Shown here: piece by piece, positions 58,518 to 63,276 of the stretch | Layout of the letters: the number at the start of each line of letters is the position of its first letter | Position numbering within the stretch: the first letter of the stretch is position 1 | DNA from: an uncultured Jannaschia sp. | GTDB taxonomy: Bacteria; Pseudomonadota; Alphaproteobacteria; Rhodobacterales; Rhodobacteraceae | DNA length: 64,000 bases | Direction of reading: 5' to 3' | Assembly (NCBI GenBank): GCA_947494145.1 | Contig: CANLTZ010000015.1 | Location: 1-64,000, forward strand | Translations under genes and position numbers: made by a program | The notes under the pieces: generated by a model | The model's input: the letters and a program-made list of their open reading frames with translations, nothing else | Database searches by the model: none | What the model was told of the DNA's origin: nothing

Positions 58518-59453
58518 ATGCCCGCCCAAGACGCCCCCCGCTCCTTCCAGGAGATCATCCTTCGGCTGCAAAGCTACTGGGCGTCCAAGGGCTGCGCGGT
58601 GCTGCAACCTTACGATATGGAGGTGGGCGCCGGCACCTTTCACCCCGCCACAACCTTGCGCGCCCTGGGCCCCAACGCTTGGGCCGCCGCCTATGTGCAG
58701 CCCTCGCGCCGTCCCACCGATGGGCGCTACGGTGAAAACCCCAACCGGCTGCAGCATTACTATCAGTTCCAGGTCCTCATCAAACCGTCGCCGCCCGACT
58801 TGCAGGAACTCTACCTCGGCTCACTAGAAGCCATCGGGATCGACATGGACCTGCACGATATCCGCTTCGTGGAAGACGATTGGGAAAGCCCCACACTCGG
58901 CGCCTGGGGCCTGGGGTGGGAGGTATGGTGCGACGGCATGGAAGTCAGCCAATACACCTATTTCCAGCAGGTAGGCGGCCATGATTGCCACCCGGTTTCG
59001 GGTGAGTTGACCTATGGTCTGGAACGCTTGGCCATGTATGTGCTTGGCGTCGACCACGTAATGGACATGCCCTTCAACGACCCGCAAACAGCGATCGCGC
59101 TGACCTATGGCGACGTCTTTCGCCAGACCGAAGAAGAATACGCCCGTTGGAATTTCGACACCGCCGACACGGAGGTCCTTCTGCGCCATTTCGAAGAGGC
59201 GGAGCGTCATTGCCACGACATCCTGTCACGCGACGCCGATGACCCCAAGACCGGCCGGCGCATCGTCATGGCGCATCCGGCTTACGACCAATGCATCAAG
59301 GCGAGCCACATCTTCAATCTGCTGGATGCCCGCGGCGTGATCTCCGTCACGGAACGCCAGGCCTATATCGGTCGTGTCCGCGCGCTGGCCAAAGCCTGCG
59401 CCGATGCTTTTCTCGACACACGCGCCGGTGGCTGGACACCCGAAGCCGCCTAA
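58518..59453 (+). CDS. glyQ: Glycyl-tRNA synthetase alpha subunit
   Basis: [43 protein letters not shown]. Confidence 0.97.
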
Positions 59454-60987: not shown

Positions 60988-63276
60988 ATGCCCGACCTTC
61001 TGATTGAGCTCTTCTCGGAAGAGATCCCCGCGCGCATGCAGACCCGTGCCGCCGCCGACCTGAAAAAGCGCGTCACCGATGGCTTGGTCGAGGCGGGGCT
61101 GACCTATGCGGGCGCCGTGGCCCATGCCACGCCGCGGCGCCTGACGCTCGCCATCTCGGGTCTGACCGATGAAAGCCCGACCACGACCGAAGAACGTCGC
61201 GGCCCCCGGGTCGACGCGCCCGAAAAGGCGCTGGCCGGCTTTCTGCGCGCCACAGGGCTGACAAAAGACCAGCTAGAGGTCCGCGACGACAAGAAGGGCC
61301 AAGTCTATCTGGCAAGCATCACCCGGCCCGGTCGCCCCGCCGCCCAGATCGTGGCCGAGGTCTTGGAGGCCACGATCCGCGATTTCCCCTGGCCCAAATC
61401 CATGCGCTGGGGGGCCGGGTCCTTGCGCTGGGTCCGCCCGTTGCGCCGCATCTTGTGCATCCTGACCCGCGAAGACGGGGCGGAAATCGTGCCCTTGGAC
61501 ATCGACGGCATCCCATCGGGCGACGTCACCGAGGGGCACCGCTTCATGGCGCCCACGCCCTTTTCCGTCACCTCGTTCGAGGATTACGAAGCCAAGCTGA
61601 AACGTGCCTTCGTGGTCCTGAACGCCGAGGAACGGGCCGACCATATCTGGCAAGACGCCACCAACCAGGCCTTTGCCGCGGGGCTTGAGGTGGTCGAAGA
61701 CCGGGGCCTTCTGGCGGAAGTGGCGGGCCTTGTGGAATGGCCCGTCGTGCTGATGGGCGAGATCGGCGCCGACTTCCTGGACCTGCCGCCCGAGGTGCTT
61801 CAGACCTCCATGAAGGAGCATCAGAAGTTCTTTTCGGTCCGGGACAAAACGGGCCGCATCACCCGCTTCATCACGGTGGCCAATCGCGAAACGGCTGACA
61901 ACGGCGCCACCATCCTGGACGGCAATGCCCGCGTCCTGTCGGCCCGCTTGGCGGATGCGAAATTCTTTTGGGAAAATGACTTGCGCAGCGTGAAGACTGT
62001 GGGCCTCGAAGGCATGGCCAAGCCCCTGGCTAACGTTACGTTCCACAACAAGCTGGGCTCCCAAGCTGATCGCATTGCCAGGATCGAGGCACTGGCCCGC
62101 GAGATCGCCCCGTTTGTCGGCGCCAAGCCCGATCTGGCAGCCGAGGCCGCCCGCATCTGCAAGGCGGATCTGGCCTCTGAGATGGTCTATGAATTCCCCG
62201 AATTGCAGGGGATCATGGGCCGCTACTATGCCCAGGCGGCGGGCCACAATGACGGCGTGCCCGAGGCGTGCGAGGAACATTATGCGCCGCTTGGCCCGTC
62301 CGACGATGTGCCGTCGGCGCCGGTTTCGGTTGCGGTGGCGCTGGCGGACAAGCTCGATACGCTAATAGGTTTTTGGGCCATTGACGAGAAACCAACGGGC
62401 TCGAAAGATCCATATGCACTAAGGCGAGCGGCATTAGGCGTTATCAGATGCCTGCTTCAACACCGTAGCTTTGGTCGGCTTCGAGACCATATTGATTTTG
62501 CGTTGCTAACGTTCGTTACGCAAAGAGCAAAATCTGCTAAAGCCTCACGCGTCGCGAGACATCCAGAAGACCCCCAACAAGCTGTTCTGATAAGTTTTGG
62601 CGCCGATGAAGTCGATGGCTATGATGGTGACAATGCCGTCCGAGCGAGCCTTAGCGATGGAACACTCTGTCTAATACCCGCTAACAGCCCAGACTCCGCG
62701 GCCTTCTACGACGGCAAAATCACTGAAATGGCGAAAGGTACTACACTAGTCGCCAGCCTCCTCTCCTTCCTCCACGACCGCCTCAAGGTCCATCTGCGCG
62801 ACGAAGGCATCCGTCACGATGTCATCGACGCTTGCCTGACAGGCGAGCGCACCGATGATCTGACCGACCTTGTCGCCCGCGCGCGCGCCCTCAACGCGTT
62901 TCTCGGGACGGATGACGGGGAAAACCTGATCCAGGGATACAAGCGGGCGAAGAACATCCTGGACCAGGCCCAGGAAAAGGATGGGGTCGAATATTCCTAC
63001 GGGGCCGACGCCAAGCTGGCGGAGACGGGCGAGGAGCAAGCGCTCTTTGCTGCGCTCGATGCCGCCCGCCCTGCTATCGACGGGGCACTCAAGGCCGAAG
63101 ATTATGCTGCTGCCATGTCTGCGCTCGCCGCGCTCCGCGCGCCCATCGACGCCTTTTTCGAGGCCGTGCAGGTCAATTCCGAACACCAGGTGACTCGTCG
63201 CAATCGGCTGAACCTGCTGTCGGAGATTGTGCGCATATGCGAAGGCATCGCCGATCTCAGCCGGGTAGGTGCATAA
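60988..63276 (+). CDS. glyS: Glycyl-tRNA synthetase beta subunit
   Basis: MPDLLIELFSEEIPARMQTRAAADLKK; KDPYALRRAALGVIR; contains an anomalous internal segment (see findings). Confidence 0.95.
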   Translation: MPDLLIELFSEEIPARMQTRAAADLKKRVTDGLVEAGLTYAGAVAHATPRRLTLAISGLTDESPTTTEERRGPRVDAPEKALAGFLRATGLTKDQLEVRDDKKGQVYLASITRPGRPAAQIVAEVLEATIRDFPWPKSMRWGAGSLRWVRPLRRILCILTREDGAEIVPLDIDGIPSGDVTEGHRFMAPTPFSVTSFEDYEAKLKRAFVVLNAEERADHIWQDATNQAFAAGLEVVEDRGLLAEVAGLVEWPVVLMGEIGADFLDLPPEVLQTSMKEHQKFFSVRDKTGRITRFITVANRETADNGATILDGNARVLSARLADAKFFWENDLRSVKTVGLEGMAKPLANVTFHNKLGSQADRIARIEALAREIAPFVGAKPDLAAEAARICKADLASEMVYEFPELQGIMGRYYAQAAGHNDGVPEACEEHYAPLGPSDDVPSAPVSVAVALADKLDTLIGFWAIDEKPTGSKDPYALRRAALGVIRCLLQHRSFGRLRDHIDFALLTFVTQRAKSAKASRVARHPEDPQQAVLISFGADEVDGYDGDNAVRASLSDGTLCLIPANSPDSAAFYDGKITEMAKGTTLVASLLSFLHDRLKVHLRDEGIRHDVIDACLTGERTDDLTDLVARARALNAFLGTDDGENLIQGYKRAKNILDQAQEKDGVEYSYGADAKLAETGEEQALFAALDAARPAIDGALKAEDYAAAMSALAALRAPIDAFFEAVQVNSEHQVTRRNRLNLLSEIVRICEGIADLSRVGA

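Follow-up and report, generated by a model that had tools for sequence, protein, structure and literature searches.

Exchangeable, hypervariable allelic cassettes are well known from proteins such as surface antigens and from the target-recognition domains of type I restriction enzymes. Rickettsia palindromic elements are repeated and palindromic, occur in many copies per genome, and lie in frame within genes. The tips of Rhs proteins are a further example of exchangeable cassettes (PMC2935791), and the Rickettsia elements are listed in PMC3767692. In the glycyl-tRNA synthetase of Escherichia coli, Loop H18-19 and helix H19 of the beta subunit GlyS (PDB 7yse, 7eiv) insert into the acceptor stem of tRNA-Gly (PMC9908026).

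The glyS gene of an uncultured Jannaschia sp., found in a 64,000-nucleotide stretch of DNA (below, the window), codes for the same enzyme, with all domains and the tRNA-gripping Loop H18-19/H19 conserved. However, the link of ~25 residues that follows H19 in E. coli is replaced here by a species-variable module of 104 residues written in foreign codons. Like exchangeable cassettes, the gene combines a conserved frame with an AT-rich, unrelated and horizontally exchanged insert of incongruent distribution. However, the known cassettes belong to surface, toxin or defence proteins, whereas GlyS is an essential cytoplasmic tRNA synthetase without a known recognition role. The likeness to the Rickettsia elements is that of an in-frame foreign segment in an alphaproteobacterial housekeeping gene; unlike these repeated, many-copy elements, the GlyS module is single and occurs in glyS only. 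The features of the gene are as follows.

60988-63276, plus strand: glyS, glycyl-tRNA synthetase beta subunit, 762 aa (Pfam tRNA_synt_2f, E 1.6e-179, and DALR_1; matches to GlyRS beta in PDB)
62356-62748, plus strand: foreign-codon tract, GC3 0.42, presumed recombination tract (maximum-likelihood GC3 segmentation)
62356-62445, plus strand: left arm, which spells conserved GlyS residues GFWAIDEKPTGSKDPYALRRAALGVI with atypical codons (GC3 segmentation, comparison with other alleles)
62398-62448, plus strand: Loop H18-19 and helix H19, GSKDPYALRRAALGVIR (alignment to E. coli GlyRS; PMC9908026)
62446-62757, plus strand: hypervariable module, residues 487-590, RCLLQH...TTLVAS (linker comparison, Roseovarius match)
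62743-62787, plus strand: candidate right anchor, core CTCCTCTCCTTCCTCCACGACCGCCTCAAGGTC (synonymous-site homogeneity across species with divergent modules)
62758-63273, plus strand: end of the HD domain and anticodon-binding domain, in ordinary host codons (Pfam, GC3 segmentation)
62416-62475 and 62743-62800: stretches of GC skew converging on the module, at the same place in ~116 relatives

To judge from its domains, its intact reading frame and the glyQ ORF upstream (58518-59453), the gene encodes the beta subunit of GlyRS. The frame is of full length, and both tRNA_synt_2f and the anticodon-binding domain are present. A sequence-only reading had noted a rare-codon block at 62362-62748. The block is real, and its borders, read by hand, lie within two codons of the maximum-likelihood two-breakpoint split of third-position GC along the gene. 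GC3 is 0.42 in the tract and 0.80 in the remainder of glyS; for 62362-62748 the counts are 54/129 vs 506/634 elsewhere in the gene (Fisher p = 5e-17), and total G+C in 62400-62599 is 0.485. Among the 49 ORFs of the window this GC3 dip is the deepest, and no internal dip of similar size occurs in any other. Those ranking second and third are artefacts of reading ORFs from stop to stop, as they lie upstream of the real starts of ilvC and recJ.

The first ~30 codons of the tract do encode conserved GlyS residues in atypical codons, as had been claimed. This left arm appears, from its codon usage, to be donor DNA extending to the left of the module into the invariant flank. Most other divergent alleles turn low in GC3 near the module start; in the window gene and a few others the change comes further left. 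The remainder, which had been described as unlike GlyS, is so indeed: no GlyS with a structure in PDB shows a match to residues 487-590. The variable segment starts at the end of helix H19 and ends ahead of the LLSFLHDRL helix, and alignment to E. coli GlyRS thus places it within the HD domain.

The glyS genes were sampled from the genus of the window and its relatives, 80 named Rhodobacteraceae records and 120 further genomes of other genera. The GlyS module is ~25 to 160 residues long and is swapped for unrelated AT-rich versions even between nearly identical genes. The sample contains 204 distinct linkers. The canonical module (n=60) is ~85 aa long, carries the motif EIADHGVFGAA and uses near-host codons (GC3 0.73 vs 0.78). 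In 25 cases there is a stub linker of ~28 aa. The remaining 119 modules are divergent (~80 +/- 25 aa), with GC3 of 0.56 vs 0.81 in the same gene; the class was set by the motif, so that a few canonical variants (e.g. L165, L184, L206, L342, L345) are counted here. The divergent modules fall into 98 BLAST clusters, the biggest of which has four members (Chao1 ~330); as BLAST overlooks remote homology, there may be fewer unrelated kinds than these counts, which are upper estimates. GlyQ encoded at the same loci has no such variation, with 303-315 residues from the conserved start. The result that the sequence-only reading named as fatal to its observation, namely that every close relative has this segment in normal codon usage, was looked for and is false. 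In a second alphaproteobacterial family (loci L292-L316, family f5 of the class) the GlyS linkers are also variable in length and partly of low GC.

What follows helix H19 is exchanged as one block; the replacements are mostly mutually unrelated and AT-rich, and close relatives differ. Among pairs with flanks at least 90% identical at the amino acid level, 42 include a divergent module, and the modules are homologous in only 1 of these 42; the canonical-canonical pairs are homologous in 12 of 12. Even when the flanks are 92-97% identical, the modules are usually non-homologous. Two Leisingera strains, SS27 and ANG1 (L133/L134), have flanks 97.5% identical and unrelated modules of 69 and 75 aa. 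The DNA-level similarity between such genes stops at the edges of the module. From one genus with 54 species, 30 loci were fetched; about half of these are canonical and ~13 divergent, and the latter include only one homologous pair.

At the same time, module families recur across genera, incongruent with the phylogeny of the flanks. The only detectable relative of the window module comes from Roseovarius sp. MMSF_3350 (L096; 34% identity over 70 aa, E 5e-7). Other such families are L006/L104, L013/L135, L157/L164, and a family comprising L016 (its module is identical to that of Jannaschia donghaensis, L092), L156 from Tateyamaria and L332; the last of these belongs to the single genus above, whose modules also match other genera. 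On the flank tree the three module classes need 61 changes vs 70-80 with shuffled labels. Thus non-homologous alternative inserts lie between conserved flanks in close relatives, and insert families are common to several lineages, as in exchangeable cassettes. Allelic replacement by a distant donor, one of the explanations offered by the sequence-only reading, is supported, as the foreign codons reach conserved positions and the sole detectable relative belongs to another genus. Its suggestion of a lineage-specific inserted domain is half borne out: every relative carries a module or a stub at this site, and the one it carries varies between species. The modules of L141 and L328 look chimeric, with a divergent N-terminal part joined to a canonical DHGVFGA/ERGIFGA part, which suggests recombination within modules.

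The borders of the replaced segment differ in sharpness. A significant GC3 segment was found in 95 divergent genes and covers the module in 87 of them. The right end of this segment has its median position two codons ahead of the conserved helix (quartiles -4 to 0), and the left end is less sharply defined. Among species with divergent modules, codons -5 to +10 at the right border have become alike at synonymous sites: in successive five-codon bins, homogeneity is 0.57, 0.73 and 0.70 in divergent genes vs 0.41, 0.54 and 0.59 in canonical ones, with little difference beyond codon +10. This pattern suggests a short common recombination anchor, or else hitchhiking of the flank. Third-position GC skew converges on the module, G-rich on the left and C-rich on the right, and is far stronger in divergent glyS (+0.52 and -0.67) than in canonical glyS (+0.18 and -0.26). 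This convergence creates GG-tract patterns on the inward strands, seen in 67% and 84% of divergent genes vs about 25% in controls. In the window glyS the right codon pattern is present and the left one absent. RNA pairing between the borders across the module was considered and is no stronger in divergent than in canonical genes.

The canonical module is modelled as an all-helical domain (mean predicted pLDDT 89), and a structure search with it retrieved nothing from PDB beyond E. coli GlyRS, to which the similarity is weak. For the window module, which had only one aligned relative, the AlphaFold model is poor, with residues 520-573 below pLDDT 50. The weak likeness of the window module (~32% over 73 aa) to glycine decarboxylase subunit 2, GcvPB, in several genomes (L032, L034) is probably due to chance. 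The best match, from a single genome among 397, has E 4e-5 and 33% identity over ~75 aa, and the genes hit are ordinary glycine decarboxylase subunits.

We somewhat favour the explanation that the HD domain contains a hypervariable module open to exchange, of which the window tract is one allele; it would be spread by recombination between glyS alleles and diversified by selection from a binding partner. It is well supported that species exchange the module through homologous recombination of their glyS genes, very probably anchored in conserved codons on its two sides. The DNA could plausibly be carried by gene transfer agents or taken up by natural transformation. RcGTA is reported to move fragments of ~4.5 kb by allelic replacement (PMC9690577), and the genome of the window contains a gene for a gene transfer agent TIM-barrel protein (G000:C10:157239-158120), so that a vehicle exists; we infer its use here. 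The module as such would be dispensable for aminoacylation, and a putative binder of the module (a phage protein, an interbacterial toxin or a host partner) would impose diversifying, frequency-dependent selection, under which new modules would be favoured repeatedly. Such selection may be invoked because the fast turnover of modules that are mutually unrelated, conserved within families and set in a fixed frame is its usual mark. Neither an antagonist nor the donor of the window tract was found, and no partner gene adjoins glyS. A more tentative reading, to which we would give somewhat less than an even chance, is that the segment, which lies beside the part of GlyS gripping the tRNA acceptor stem, is a dedicated specificity module in an arms race or in self-non-self recognition, where phages, toxins or competitors would use it to bind GlyS and swapping by gene transfer would provide the escape.

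The main rival is a tolerated insert replaced neutrally: the loop after H19 would take almost any in-frame sequence, so that foreign or de novo DNA would be gained and lost fast. The stub linkers of ~28 aa, which work, are a counterweight to the proposed selection and may mean that the insert is merely tolerated; many modules have no relative anywhere searched, and the model of the window module is of low confidence. However, single families are found in several genera with their motifs PRNLYLGDDEMAF conserved, and some pairs within families are under purifying selection (L120/L147, pN 0.18 and pS 0.70). Further, the residue make-up of divergent modules is like that of folded proteins, with an order-promoting content equal to that of the GlyS body (0.29), and the canonical module is conserved in many genera. 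Nor was a source detected: the two families tested have no occurrence outside glyS in 397 genomes, apart from one weak match (E 0.007). We hold neutral replacement to be unlikely, although of some weight. One young pair, L018/L019, has dN 0.10 and dS 0.08 over 61 codons, which hints at positive selection.

It is quite unlikely that every module is a homologue of the canonical one and has simply evolved fast, with AT-richness resulting from relaxed codon selection. The first ~12 residues (RLVLENxxRxxL) are indeed common to the modules, and mean lengths are similar (80 aa in divergent vs 85 aa in canonical). However, unalignable modules between flanks 92-97% identical leave no time for divergence, different genera have module families in common, and in the window glyS the foreign codons reach into invariant residues.

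The right border is exact to a few codons and carries a short conserved DNA anchor, and GC skew converges at both borders; these features could also be expected of a selfish element that restores the frame, or of a poison-antidote system bringing a resistant 3' part of glyS with a linked toxin. We consider this very unlikely. Canonical and divergent alleles have the same genes next to them, with no companion gene tied to the divergent ones, and inversion of the module or reuse of the same DNA in another frame was tested and is not supported. The window module has no match in phage records, plasmid records or IMG/VR, and neither the insert nor its glyS flank was found in such records, as an integrated prophage or plasmid would require. 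In its own genome it is single-copy (next best match E 0.44), and several copies per genome, as in repeated elements of the Rickettsia type, are not seen. Among the window module and 52 others there is no splicing or homing endonuclease domain that would indicate an intein or homing element, and no Pfam match beyond chance. Capture of a known domain, phage gene or defence gene was rejected by comparing 53 modules with Pfam, PHROGs and PADLOC: at most one member hits any family, with E-values at chance level for 53 queries except for one PHROG helicase match (3e-4). The scar of an element integrating in glyS, suggested by the sequence-only reading, thus finds neither a standalone copy nor a class-specific neighbour. 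Finally, the dip does sit at a domain boundary, but selection of foreign codons to slow translation there is barely credible, as canonical modules at the same site have near-host codons and the unrelated protein sequences would be left unexplained.

No description of hypervariable GlyS or of GlyS insertions was found in the open PMC literature. To our knowledge, swapping of unrelated hypervariable modules has been described in antigens, in toxins and in defence proteins, but in no core translation enzyme. Such variation would be expected of surface antigens or immune genes and is surprising in an essential translation enzyme. One consequence is that glyS cannot safely serve as a phylogenetic marker in Rhodobacteraceae. 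Should selection be responsible, some unrecognised antagonist would target GlyS in this abundant family of marine bacteria, and the module would offer a handle for finding it.
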